DNA of 64,000 bases from assembly GCF_002934265.1 (NCBI RefSeq), contig NZ_PTIX01000006.1, positions 248,001 to 312,000 on the forward strand. Direction: 5' to 3'. Below the pieces are notes generated by a model that worked only from the letters and a program-made list of their open reading frames with translations, was not told the origin of the DNA and searched no databases. The stretch comes from Actinokineospora auranticolor. GTDB taxonomy: Bacteria; Actinomycetota; Actinomycetes; Mycobacteriales; Pseudonocardiaceae. This document shows, one piece after another, positions 1,627-6,768 of the stretch; the first letter of the stretch is position 1, and the number at the start of each line of letters is the position of its first letter. The translations under genes and the position numbers were made by a program.

Positions 1627-2199
1627 TTGACGGTGATCGACTCCAACGCCGCCCGCAAGCGGCAGACCATCCCGATGCACCGAGGACTGCACGTCGAACC
1701 GCTCATCGGACTGGAGTGGTCCGAAGCACTGGAACAGCCGGTGGCGGGCGAGGCCACCGCGCCGGGCGAGGCCCGCCGGGCCTGGGTGCACCGCGCACCG
1801 GAGGCCCAGGTCGTCGCCCTCTACCGCGCCGCGTCGGCGGCCGAGCGGGCCCTGCCCGCCCCGTGGTGGCTGCGCGCGGTCGCCGCGGGCGAACTCCCCT
1901 CCCGGCGCGAGGGCTTCGCCGTCGAGGACCGGGTGGCCAAGCTGCTGAACGCCCGCCCGGGGTGGGTCTTCGTCCCGTGGGGCGTGGACGGCGACGCGGG
2001 CTACTGGGAGTTCATGCCGTCCGAACGCGCGCTGGTCGAACCCGGCATGCCGACCACGTTGGCGCACACGCACCGGCACCCGGGCTGGATCGACGTGGTG
2101 GCGGTGCACGCGGGCGGCCCGGCCCCGGCGCCGATCCCGGTGCGGGGACTGCCGGACCTGCGCGCCAACCTGTCCAGGTTGGAGTCGTTAAGACCCTGA
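1627..2199 (+). CDS. Hypothetical protein
   Basis: This 190-residue soluble protein is not recognised. The TTG start was chosen because GGAGG at 1616-1620 lies 6 bp upstream. It has no signal peptide or membrane segment. The centre is Trp- and Arg-rich (PAPWWLRAVAAGELPSRREG), and the later stretch GDAGYWEFMPSERALVEPG followed by HTHRHPGW contains several His. It stands alone between the ABC exporter and trmB, with its own leader. Confidence 0.7.
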   Translation: MTVIDSNAARKRQTIPMHRGLHVEPLIGLEWSEALEQPVAGEATAPGEARRAWVHRAPEAQVVALYRAASAAERALPAPWWLRAVAAGELPSRREGFAVEDRVAKLLNARPGWVFVPWGVDGDAGYWEFMPSERALVEPGMPTTLAHTHRHPGWIDVVAVHAGGPAPAPIPVRGLPDLRANLSRLESLRP

Positions 2200-2309: not shown

Positions 2310-3044
2310 GTGACTCAGCCGGACCAGCACCCGACCAGCGCCACCGAACCGTTCGACGACCGGCCCCGGCGGACGGTGGTGAGTTTCGTGCACCGCGGTG
2401 GCCGGATGACGGTGGGCCAGGCCAAGGCGTGGGAGCGGCGGTGGCCGGAGTTGGGTCGGCAGGTCGGTGACCTGCCCGAGGGGACCCTCGACGCGGATCG
2501 GTGGTTCGGGCGGTCGGCGCCGGTGCTGCTGGAGATCGGGTCCGGGATGGGGGAGACCACCTCGCTCCTCGCGCAGGCCGCGCCGGAGGTGAACTACCTG
2601 GCGGTCGAGGTGTACGAGCCGGGGTTGGCGCAGCTGATGCTGCGGGCCGAGGCGATGGGGCTGACCAACCTCCGGCTGCTGCGCGGCGACGCCGTCGTCC
2701 TGCTGACCGACCACATCGCACCGGGATCGCTGTCCGGGGTCCGGTTGTTCTTCCCAGACCCCTGGCCGAAGAAGAAGCACCACAAGCGCCGCATCGTGCA
2801 GCCGTCGTTCGCGGGGCTCGTCGCGTCGCGGTTGGCGCCGGGGGGCACCTTCCACCTGGCGACCGACTGGGAGAACTACGCCGAGCAGATGCTGGCGGTG
2901 CTGTCCGGGGAACCGCTGCTGCGCAACCGGTTCGACGGGTGGGCGCCGCGGCCGGAGTGGCGGCCGGTGACCAAGTTCGAGTCCCGCGCCCGCACCGAGG
3001 GACGGATCAGTCGTGATCTCATCTTCGAACGAGTGAATGACTGA
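2310..3044 (+). CDS. trmB: tRNA (guanine-N7-)-methyltransferase TrmB
   Basis: TrmB methylates N7 of G46 in the variable loop of tRNAs using S-adenosylmethionine. The SAM-binding loop is EIGSGMGETTSLLAQ, the acidic loop is LAVEVYEPG, and the family signature FFPDPWPKKKHHKRRI follows, with the C-terminal ATDWENYAEQML segment. Length (244 residues) fits the family, with a typical short disordered actinobacterial N-terminus. The start is GTG. The gene is followed after 79 bp by the NOS-like gene on the same strand, with no strong terminator in between. Confidence 0.95.
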   Translation: MTQPDQHPTSATEPFDDRPRRTVVSFVHRGGRMTVGQAKAWERRWPELGRQVGDLPEGTLDADRWFGRSAPVLLEIGSGMGETTSLLAQAAPEVNYLAVEVYEPGLAQLMLRAEAMGLTNLRLLRGDAVVLLTDHIAPGSLSGVRLFFPDPWPKKKHHKRRIVQPSFAGLVASRLAPGGTFHLATDWENYAEQMLAVLSGEPLLRNRFDGWAPRPEWRPVTKFESRARTEGRISRDLIFERVND

Positions 3045-3123
3045 CCGTCGGTGACAGGGGTTCGGCAAGGACCACACGTCCGAGTAGTCGAGGCGCGGGG
3101 CTTGAGTACCGATATCCAGTGAT

Positions 3124-4173
3124 GTGACGGCCCTGCGCGATGCCCCCACCCCCGCACCCCCGACCGACCCGGGGCCGCCGTCGCCACGCAACCGCCCCGC
3201 CGACTCGCTCTTCACGGCGGCCGAGCGGTTCCTCCAGGTCTTCCACGACGCGCGGCCCAAGGCGGGGCCGTTGGCCGCGCGGCTGGCCAAGGTCCGCGCG
3301 GAGGTCGCCGCGACCGGCACCTACCGGCACACCCCCGCCGAACTGGCCTTCGGCGCCCGGGTCGCGCTGCGCGAGAGCGGCTGGTGCCCGGACACGGTGC
3401 CGTGGCGCGGTTTGCTGGTGCGCGACCTGCGCGAGGTCCGCGACGCCACGGCGGTGGCCGCCGAGTGCGTGCACCACCTGCGGATGGCCGCGGCGGGCGG
3501 CGCGGTCAGACCGGTGGTCAGCGTGTTCGCGCCGGACACGCCGTGGCGGGCGGGACCGCGCATCCGCAACGACCAACTGGTCCGCTACGCCGGTTACCGC
3601 GAGGCCGACGGCGTGCTCGGCGACCGCCGCTACGTCGACTTCACCACCGGGGTCTGCCGGTTGGGGTGGCGCCCGCCGGTCGAGCGCGGCCCGTTCGACC
3701 TGCTCCCACTGGTCGTGGAGACCGACGACGACGGCGTGCGGCTGTTCCCCATCCCGCGCGAGGCCGTGGTCGAGGTGCGGCTGGCGCACCCGGAGTTCGC
3801 CTGGTTCACCGAGCTGGACCTGCGCTGGCACGCGGTCCCGGTGATCAGCAACACCCGCCTGCACATCGGCGGCATCGACTACCCCGCCGCGCCGTACAAC
3901 GGCATCTACATCTGCCGCGCGATCGGCGAGGACGTGCTCGGCGAGGAAGCCGCGTACGGCAAGGCCACCGCGGTGGCGCGGCGGCTGGGCCTGGACACCA
4001 GCAGCGACCGCACGCTCTGGCGCGACCGCGTCGCCCTCGAGCTCAACCGCGCGGTGCTGCACTCCTTCGACGCGGCGGGCGTGCGCATCGAGCACTCGGC
4101 CGAGGTCTACGCCCCCGCGACCGAGGCCCCGCACCGCCCCGCCTTCCTCCGCCAGATCCCCGTCAAGCGCTGA
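3124..4173 (+). CDS. Nitric-oxide-synthase oxygenase-fold protein with altered substrate pocket
   Basis: The 349-residue protein aligns collinearly, from my memory of the family, with bacterial NOS oxygenase domains: TGTYRHTPAELAFGARVALR, then RNDQLVRYAGYRE, FDLLPLVVE, HPEFAWF, LRWHAVPVISN, IGGIDYPAAPYNG, RRLGLDTSSDRTLWRDR and VLHSF. The heme-ligand cysteine is kept at C88, but the surrounding motif RCIGR reads WCPDT. The usual Trp stacked on heme is L82. The substrate-site segment WYMGTEIG reads IYICRAIG (261-268): the Trp is I261 and the arginine-binding Glu is A266. The pterin-side Arg is D270. No reductase domain is present, as in other bacterial NOS. Family membership is firm, but classical L-Arg oxidation to NO is doubtful. 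The GTG start has no obvious ribosome-binding site. Confidence 0.88.
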   Translation: MTALRDAPTPAPPTDPGPPSPRNRPADSLFTAAERFLQVFHDARPKAGPLAARLAKVRAEVAATGTYRHTPAELAFGARVALRESGWCPDTVPWRGLLVRDLREVRDATAVAAECVHHLRMAAAGGAVRPVVSVFAPDTPWRAGPRIRNDQLVRYAGYREADGVLGDRRYVDFTTGVCRLGWRPPVERGPFDLLPLVVETDDDGVRLFPIPREAVVEVRLAHPEFAWFTELDLRWHAVPVISNTRLHIGGIDYPAAPYNGIYICRAIGEDVLGEEAAYGKATAVARRLGLDTSSDRTLWRDRVALELNRAVLHSFDAAGVRIEHSAEVYAPATEAPHRPAFLRQIPVKR

Positions 4174-4237: not shown

Positions 4238-5542
4238 ATGAGCCTGCGCCTGCGCGCCCCCATCGTGCTGCCGTGCGACCCGACCTGCTCGGTGCTGCGC
4301 GACGCGGTCGTCGACGTCGACGCCGGTGGCCGGATCACCCACTGCGGCCCCCGGGCGAGCGCCCCGCCGTCCTCCGCCCCGGTGCGCGAGCTGACCGGCA
4401 TCCTGCTGCCCGGCCTGGTGAACGCGCACGCGCACAGCCCGATGACGCTGCTGCGCGGCCTCGGCGGCGACCTGCCGCTGGTGCGCTGGCTGACCGAGGT
4501 CATCTGGCCAGCCGAGGCGAAGCTGGCCCCGGCCGACATCCACACCGGCATGGTGCTCGGCTCGCTGGAGATGCTGCGCGCGGGCGTGACCACCAGCGCG
4601 GAGATGTACTTCCACGGCGAGGAAGTGGTCCGCGCCGTGCTCGACACCGGCGCCCGGCTCGTGCTGGCCCCGGCGGTGATCGACGCCCCCGGGTGGGACT
4701 GGCGCGCGCAGCTGGCCGCGACCAGCGCGTGGATCGACGCGGACGGCCTGCGGTTCGGGCCGGGCCAGCGCATCGAGGTCGGCTACGGCCCGCACTCCGG
4801 CTACATGCTCTCCCCGGCGGCGCTGGGCGAGGTCGGCGCGGCGGCCCGCGAGCGCGGGGCGCTGGTGCAGGTGCACGTGTCGGAGTCGCTGCCGGAGGAC
4901 GTGGCGCAGCGCGAGTCGCACGGGTCGATGGCCGCGCTGATGGACCGGGCGGAGCTGTTCGGCGGCCGGGTGCTGGCCGCGCACTCGGTCCACCTGTCCG
5001 ACGAGGACATCGCGGTGTTCGCCCGGCGCGGTGTCGGCGTCGCGCACTGCCCCGGGTCGAACATGAAGCTGGCGTCCGGCATCGCCCGGGTCGGCGACCT
5101 GCGCGCGGCCGGGGTGGCGCTGGGGCTGGGCACCGACGGGCCCGCCAGCAACGACGACCTGGACCTGTGGGAGGACATGCGGTTGGCGGGCCTGCTCAGC
5201 CGTGTGTCCACACTGGACTCGACCGCGCTCGGCGCGGCGGACCTGCTGCTGATGGCGACCCGGGGCAGCGCCGCGGCCCTGTCCCGCGACGACATCGGCG
5301 TGCTGGCACCGGGCGCTTGGGCCGACCTGGTGCACGTCGGCGTCGACGACCCGGCCTTCGCGGGCGGGCTCGACGTGTCGGACGAGCAGCTGCTGTCGAA
5401 CCTGGTGTGGGCGGCCGGGTCCCGGACGGTGCGGGACGTGTGGGTCGCCGGGGACGTCGTGGTCAGCGAGGGCGCGCCGGTGCGCGTGTCGTGGGACGAG
5501 GCGCTGGGCGCGTCCCGCAAGGCCGTCGCCGGGCTGGTCTGA
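4238..5542 (+). CDS. Amidohydrolase, MtaD/SsnA-type deaminase
   Basis: This metal-dependent amidohydrolase belongs to the branch that includes 5-methylthioadenosine/S-adenosylhomocysteine deaminase and chlorohydrolase-like enzymes. Visible metal and catalytic motifs are NAHAHSPMTLLRG (HxH), VQVHVSES, AAHSVHLSDEDI, VAHCPGSNMKLASG and LGTDGPASNDDLDLW. The ATG at 4238 was chosen because GGGAGGA lies 8 bp upstream at 4223-4229, although the frame is open earlier. It follows the NOS-like gene by 64 bp on the same strand, so the two may be co-transcribed. The exact substrate cannot be read from sequence. Confidence 0.85.
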   Translation: MSLRLRAPIVLPCDPTCSVLRDAVVDVDAGGRITHCGPRASAPPSSAPVRELTGILLPGLVNAHAHSPMTLLRGLGGDLPLVRWLTEVIWPAEAKLAPADIHTGMVLGSLEMLRAGVTTSAEMYFHGEEVVRAVLDTGARLVLAPAVIDAPGWDWRAQLAATSAWIDADGLRFGPGQRIEVGYGPHSGYMLSPAALGEVGAAARERGALVQVHVSESLPEDVAQRESHGSMAALMDRAELFGGRVLAAHSVHLSDEDIAVFARRGVGVAHCPGSNMKLASGIARVGDLRAAGVALGLGTDGPASNDDLDLWEDMRLAGLLSRVSTLDSTALGAADLLLMATRGSAAALSRDDIGVLAPGAWADLVHVGVDDPAFAGGLDVSDEQLLSNLVWAAGSRTVRDVWVAGDVVVSEGAPVRVSWDEALGASRKAVAGLV

Positions 5543-6084: not shown

Positions 6085-6768
6085 CTAGCGAACCGGGCGG
6101 GACCGGATGACCAGTTCCGTCAGATGCGCGTCGTCGGCGGCGAACACGGCGGTCCGGATGGACTCGGCGACCGACTCCGGCCGCAGGTACTTCGCCGGTT
6201 CGTAGTCCCCACCCTCGTCGGCGCGGACCACGCGTTGCATGTCCGTGTCGGTGCGACCGGGGAAGACCGAGGTGACCCGGATACCCGCCGCTTCCTCCTC
6301 GCCGCGCAGCACGTCGGCGTAGGCGGTGAGGGCGAACTTGCTCGCCGCGTACGGGCCCCACCCGGGGTTGGCGGACTTGCCCGCGCCCGAGTTCACCAGC
6401 ACCACGCGGCCCCGGGCGGCGCGCAGCGCGGGGAGCAGCAGCCGGGTCAGCTCCGCGACCGCCACGACGTTGATCTCGTAGGTGCTCCGCCACAGGTCCG
6501 CCGACGCCGCGGCCAGCGGACCCACCCGCGCCACACCGGCGGAGTGCACCAGGACGTCCAAAGTGGACAATTCGGCCGCCGCGGCGGCCAAGGCCGCGTG
6601 GTCGGTCAGCTCGACCGGCCACGGCCGTGCGTCGGGCAGCTCGGCGGCCAGCGCGGCCAGCGCCGCCTCGTCGCGACCACCGAGCAGGAGCGTGTGCGTG
6701 TCGGCGAGGGCGCGCGCGGTGGCCGCGCCGATACCTCGGGACGCGCCGGTGATCAGGGCCAGGGGCAT
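6085..6768 (-). CDS. Short-chain dehydrogenase/reductase
   Basis: This is a classical SDR of 227 residues. The cofactor loop is TGASRGIG (residues 7-14), followed by the structural motif HSAGVAR, the catalytic Ser in LVNSGAG and the catalytic YAASK. An Arg follows the second strand (GGRDEA), which favours NADPH over NADH. The substrate is unknown. It is the first gene of a two-gene minus-strand unit and is separated from phoX by a strong hairpin. Confidence 0.88.
   Translation of the reverse strand: MPLALITGASRGIGAATARALADTHTLLLGGRDEAALAALAAELPDARPWPVELTDHAALAAAAAELSTLDVLVHSAGVARVGPLAAASADLWRSTYEINVVAVAELTRLLLPALRAARGRVVLVNSGAGKSANPGWGPYAASKFALTAYADVLRGEEEAAGIRVTSVFPGRTDTDMQRVVRADEGGDYEPAKYLRPESVAESIRTAVFAADDAHLTELVIRSRPVR

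Follow-up and report, generated by a model that had tools for sequence, protein, structure and literature searches.

A paralogue of nitric oxide synthase (NOS), maintained at one locus in the family Pseudonocardiaceae, lies at positions 3124 to 4173 of the 64,000-nucleotide stretch of Actinokineospora auranticolor DNA analysed here, hereafter the window. NOS chemistry, as outlined in an excerpted account, combines a thiolate-bound heme, a pterin that acts as one-electron donor and an arginine held by a Glu (PMC9500659). Two of these three requirements are gone in the window protein, so that it very likely makes no nitric oxide (NO) from arginine. As judged from sequence, the reading we favour, at a probability of about 0.47, is a NOS-fold protein with a binding or regulatory function, with a heme-thiolate in most species. 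The gene and its altered segments are the following.

3124..4173, + strand: NOS-like gene, type A of the NOS-like clade (types are defined below); GTG start, 349 amino acids
3367..3411, + strand: proximal heme loop, residues 82–96, with L82, W87, C88 (heme-ligand position), P89, D90, T91 and P93
3904..3933, + strand: arginine/pterin helix, residues 261–270, with I261, Y262, A266, E269 and D270 replacing W, Y, E, A and R
4093..4170, + strand: short C-terminal tail without the canonical pterin segment

The sole Pfam family matched by the protein at E ≤ 0.001 is NO_synthase (314 bits, E 1.2e-93). The match pairs residues 27–323 with profile positions 3–299 of 362 and leaves about 60 C-terminal profile positions, including the pterin-binding segment, with no counterpart; the original prediction of a match to NOS along the whole length therefore stands for the oxygenase fold but not for this C-terminal portion. 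The best solved relatives are NOS, with cyanobacterial SyNOS (9q05, 249 bits) as the top PDB sequence match, the protein classes with the NOS oxygenase fold, and its AlphaFold model aligns with NOS over almost the entire length. No second domain was seen in the window protein, for which Pfam gives NO_synthase alone, and no P450 family reached E 0.001. Cytochromes P450 have a fold unrelated to that of NOS; a thiolate-bound heme would be common to both if the window protein binds heme. The same genome also encodes, on contig C9, a full-length ordinary NOS (500 bits) that is 57% identical to the window protein.

The residue mapping is firm because both key segments, around C88 and over residues 231–324, align to Geobacillus NOS without gaps. 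In the proximal loop, L82 stands for the proximal Trp, W87 for Arg/Lys and D90 for Gly, with C88 retained, and in the arginine/pterin helix I261 stands for Trp, A266 for Glu and D270 for Arg. These gap-free alignments bear out each of the six substitutions and the kept Cys, as well as the loss of the L-arginine pocket that the original prediction had proposed. The human eNOS residue aligned with A266 is Glu361, a number obtained by counting back from N370 in the row of 8uft (P370N); a PDB chain titled E361Q exists as 8ufs.

Compared with bacterial NOS oxygenases (bsNOS, gsNOS 2flq and the contig C9 NOS), the window protein lacks the proximal Trp, both the Glu and the Trp that bind arginine, the Arg close by and the C-terminal pterin segment. 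In the 9q05 segment of SyNOS, by contrast, the proximal Trp is still present, as are the Trp and Glu of the arginine site and an Arg. SyNOS also carries globin and reductase domains, according to the same excerpts (PMC9500659). TxtD, RufN and PtnF are likewise NOS-type bacterial proteins; the excerpted text describes them as natural-product NOS with highly conserved catalytic centres, TxtD and RufN supplying NO and PtnF participating in triazolopyrimidine formation (PMC9500659). Compared by description, the window protein is set apart from them by a catalytic centre that has been dismantled.

Active-site losses across the clade

A search for homologues with the same variants, a check put forward with the original prediction, recovered a conserved clade. 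For the tree and the signature counts, 52 NOS-like and 30 canonical tips were picked as representatives from a larger locus set; two copies split over two frames, in genomes G126 and G038, are excluded from every count. In the FastTree tree, all 52 divergent tips are monophyletic with support 1.0 and nested inside ordinary Pseudonocardiaceae NOS. Residue 261 divides the clade: type A, to which the window protein belongs, has Val or Ile at this position (22 tips), and types B and C have other residues (30 tips, hereafter B/C).

Fifteen positions differ clade-wide between canonical and divergent tips, 8 of them within residues 82–96, the heme-Cys loop. The proximal Trp is present in 30/30 canonical tips and in 0/52 clade tips. 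The ADWxW pterin motif is likewise absent from 52/52 clade tips, and present in 26 of 28 canonical tips with an aligned tail (L170 and L181 failed the pterin pattern, and two PDB segments lack the tail). In type B, the deletion of the pterin segment is clean, and the tail beyond it (RPEF / RPAF...) is still alignable.

The arginine site separates the types. Its Glu is found in 30/30 canonical tips, 0/22 of type A and 25/30 of type B/C, where Asp (4 tips) and Thr (1 tip) make up the remainder, so that B/C proteins keep Glu or Asp in 29/30 and the substrate Trp also in 29/30. In all 22 type A tips, Val or Ile, a small residue, and Asp or Glu replace Trp, Glu and Arg, respectively; no Glu occupies the guanidinium site, which holds Ala in 18, Thr in 2, Gly in 1 and Ser in 1, and the window protein aligns there without gaps. 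The B/C-like protein L078, which has Thr for the Glu and retains the Trp, branches as sister of type A in the tree, a position from which the Glu may have been lost before the Trp. Residue 262 is Tyr in 22/22 type A tips, as in canonical NOS, and Phe in 30/30 B/C tips; because Tyr262 is retained, type A is not merely a more degraded type B.

The Cys-to-Tyr tips, in which Tyr takes the heme-ligand position, are all type A, comprising two Kibdelosporangium tips and a record titled Rhodococcus rhodnii, and have a shortened PVISN segment. Across the clade, the losses look ordered: all 52 tips lack the proximal Trp and the pterin segment, type A also lacks the Glu, Trp and Arg of the arginine site, and the Kibdelosporangium lineage lacks the heme Cys as well.

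Distribution and selection

Within Actinokineospora, 16/16 genomes carry the divergent form at 71–100% identity, which excludes chance and agrees with the original prediction that this is not random decay; 11/16 also carry an ordinary NOS. Internal stops flagged in five of these homologues were rejected, as the frames are open to their own C-terminus and the match had overrun the natural stop.

In a sample of the family, a NOS-type match is found in 188/297 genomes and 27/46 genera, with no match in the other 19 genera. Among fetched examples, 17 of the 27 NOS-bearing genera have an open divergent copy. In one further genus (g24, genome G038), an ordinary NOS is accompanied by a divergent copy directly after trmB that is split over two frames. 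Only the ordinary form is present in the genome examined for 8 of the 27, one of which (G028) also holds what is left of another NOS-type gene, and 1 of the 27 gives a marginal match only. The split copy of G038 (L225 and L229, contig C1, about 4226367–4227346) reads SGHCP at the heme loop and still has Glu at the arginine site. A named scan, with a query built from the clade and hence a sample that favours the divergent form, kept 80 loci, of which 51 are divergent (12 genera and the record titled Rhodococcus rhodnii) and 29 ordinary.

Outside the family, 53/394 genomes of a class-level sample match, and 53/53 are of ordinary type by motif, with the proximal-Trp motif and the Glu kept. No divergent form was found among these 53 NOS-bearing genomes, where scoring covered the 5 best candidates of each genome (7 in the family sample), so that second copies may be missed. 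No relative was found in viral contigs using patterns from the window protein. Two of the ordinary genes outside the family are unusual in themselves: L267 (G391, another family of the order) has His for the substrate-site Trp (NGHYLGDEIG), and L269 is in two pieces.

Within the family, L131, in the record JOAA01000011.1 titled Rhodococcus rhodnii NRRL B-16535, is a Cys-to-Tyr gene at the trmB locus, 97% identical to the copy of K. aridum; the species name of that record is probably wrong. Genome G042, from the same genus as K. aridum, holds five NOS-type genes (L207, L223, L227, L231 and L233), two of which, L231 and L233, are only 42–44% identical to the window protein, the latter with an altered pterin segment.

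The pairs tested show purifying selection on the NOS-like gene. The ratio of nonsynonymous to synonymous proportions (pN/pS) over 12 pairs is 0.19–0.62 for the NOS-like gene and 0.13–0.57 for TrmB, and 0.16–0.53 for 4 pairs of ordinary NOS. For the Cys-to-Tyr form it is 0.06–0.07 in 3/3 pairs, with, for example, 16 nonsynonymous and 90 synonymous differences. This strong purifying selection on a Cys-less relative, the deletion of the pterin segment and the ordinary NOS in 11/16 genus genomes are points that the original prediction did not contain.

The synteny set comprises 40 fetched stretches (≤ 20 kb) and the window, with 35 loci of the divergent form and 6 of ordinary NOS; neighbour genes are from gene calls made for this analysis. 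The features around the gene in the window are the following.

1633..2199, + strand: c4, conserved hypothetical protein of 188 amino acids, no Pfam match; in the block at 33/35 loci
2310..3044, + strand: trmB, tRNA (guanine46-N7)-methyltransferase; in the same stretch at 34/35 clade loci, directly upstream at 27/35
3072..3114, + strand: conserved promoter-like block, with CCACACG, GTAGTCGAG (3084–3092) and CCGATA (3109–3114)
4238..5542, + strand: TRZ/ATZ-type amidohydrolase; in the same stretch at 32/35 loci, directly downstream at 18/35
6085..6768, − strand: short-chain dehydrogenase; edge of the syntenic block

The window gene thus sits at a locus different from that of ordinary actinobacterial NOS: none of trmB, c4 and the amidohydrolase occurs at the 6 ordinary loci, and in the named set trmB lies within the examined flanks at 49/51 divergent and 0/29 ordinary loci. 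The loci that lack trmB correspond to an additional, unlinked copy carried by Kibdelosporangium (L066; L136, L143). A group of second copies from this genus (L066, L136, L143, L207 and L208) is of type B with Asp for the Glu and has no trmB in the examined flanks. The arrangement varies in detail; trmB is shifted to the opposite side and strand in L063, and three genes (L051, L052 and L055) or one gene (L071, L075 and L076) stand between it and the NOS-like gene elsewhere.

In genomes with no NOS match (one per genus), a close amidohydrolase, 61–69% identical, is nevertheless present in 13/14; of these 13 loci, 3 have trmB immediately before it and 9 have a kinase-regulator pair on its upstream side. 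A kinase also follows the NOS-like gene at many type B loci. The amidohydrolase and TrmB were rejected as functional partners because the block is also present in genomes that have no NOS match, and the neighbours carry little functional information.

Upstream of the gene, CGATA begins 13–14 nucleotides 5′ of the GTG in 17/17 type A loci, and CCGATA is found there in 16/17, compared with 2/291 other genes in the same stretches; a Shine-Dalgarno-like sequence is found in 1/17. The block is retained at loci from which trmB has moved and at those with three genes in between. Type A genes look to have a private, conserved promoter with a leaderless start. A regulon sharing this promoter was rejected, as GTARTYSAG-N14..22-CCGATA matches one site in the genome, that of the window, and the reversed control none. 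The −10-like CCGATA resembles the GCCGATAA element of sigma-WhiG/FliA, for which excerpts of the literature give the consensus TAAA / GCCGATAA (PMC8325347), but the −35 does not fit. A WhiG-type sigma factor scores above the cut-off in 20/20 genomes, and the consensus is found with ≤ 2 mismatches in 1/17 type A loci and with ≤ 4 in 17/17, versus 27/291 other genes. Sigma-WhiG control was rejected at ≤ 2 mismatches to the full consensus and is retained as a lead only.

Possible roles of the NOS-like protein

We favour a binding or regulatory role because the electron donor is absent, no specific partner is seen among the neighbours and the Cys-less lineage is strongly conserved. The paralogue retains the predicted NOS fold and, nearly always, the heme-ligand Cys, but would be incapable of the NOS reaction. 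Lacking a pterin electron donor, a guanidinium-binding Glu and a dedicated partner gene, it would most likely act as a pseudoenzyme or as a sensor of a ligand, built on the NOS fold. Most species would have heme bound via Cys88 and a small ligand in a remodelled distal pocket; in Kibdelosporangium, the protein would function with no thiolate-bound heme. Somewhat more tentatively, this may be the first NOS-fold pseudoenzyme clade, an ordered conversion of NOS (pterin segment and redox-tuning Trp, then the arginine site, with the heme cysteine last) to another role, possibly independent of heme and under developmental control.

Several observations pull the other way. Cys88 is kept in 49/52 clade tips, with Tyr in 3, and the distal residues Y262 (22/22 type A) and N259 persist. 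W87 in 45/52 and P93 in 51/52 look like the marks of a heme site that was re-tuned, not abandoned, which suits catalysis equally. The alignments given to AlphaFold contained ordinary NOS, biasing the prediction to the NOS fold. Finally, two copies are split over two frames, in G126 (Cys-to-Tyr form) and G038 (beside trmB), by decay or assembly error. The split copy of G126 comprises L228 and L232 (contig C50, about 352153–353069), and the ordinary-type NOS of that genome (L224/L234) is also broken up.

The main rival, which we consider less probable but which has genuine support, is a NOS-derived heme-thiolate oxygenase or peroxygenase that acts on a new substrate, P450-like in working with no pterin, with a small-residue pocket in place of the arginine site. 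The kept Cys88, Y262 and N259 and the newly fixed proximal W87 and P93 suit such an enzyme, as does the predicted NOS fold, and a guanidine-like substrate would be possible in types B/C, which keep the Trp and an acidic residue. However, no reductase or substrate-pathway gene was seen co-travelling with the gene, the TrmB, amidohydrolase and kinase pair also co-occurring in genomes without it, and purifying selection acts strongly on the Cys-to-Tyr lineage. So close a Cys-less relative weakens 'heme enzyme' as a role for the whole clade.

Slow decay of the gene is improbable. The active-site losses, the split copies in G126 and G038 and the NOS-type remnants in G028 could be taken for it, but the frame is open in 16/16 genus genomes and in the fetched examples from 17 genera, pN/pS is similar to that of TrmB and far lower in the Cys-less form, and the promoter is kept even where trmB has moved or three genes intervene. 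Still less credible is a metabolic partnership with the adjoining amidohydrolase, which would process a product of the NOS-like protein: the two genes are often neighbours, the amidohydrolase lying in the examined flanks of 44/51 named loci in addition to the 18/35 and 32/35 given above, yet it is found, 61–69% identical, in 13/14 genomes that have no NOS match, directly after trmB in 3/13, and in L086, L087, L099 and L120 no amidohydrolase turned up in the 6 kb downstream. NO production from arginine by a rearranged pocket is the least probable of all, as nothing remains of the Glu, Trp and adjacent Arg at the arginine site, where the alignment is gap-free, nor of the proximal Trp and the pterin segment, and 11/16 genus genomes have an ordinary NOS.

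No description of this clade was found among the matches listed from the open-access literature, a scope that leaves subscription papers aside. Annotation by Pfam NO_synthase alone would label its genes as NO synthases, which applies to 51/80 loci of the named scan, whose query favours the clade. The natural proteins that lack the pterin segment, the proximal Trp, the arginine-site Glu or the heme Cys form a test set for what each part contributes. NOS is regarded as a one-reaction family whose active site hardly varies; the ordered dismantling of that site throughout a clade, under selection, would mean that the fold is reusable.
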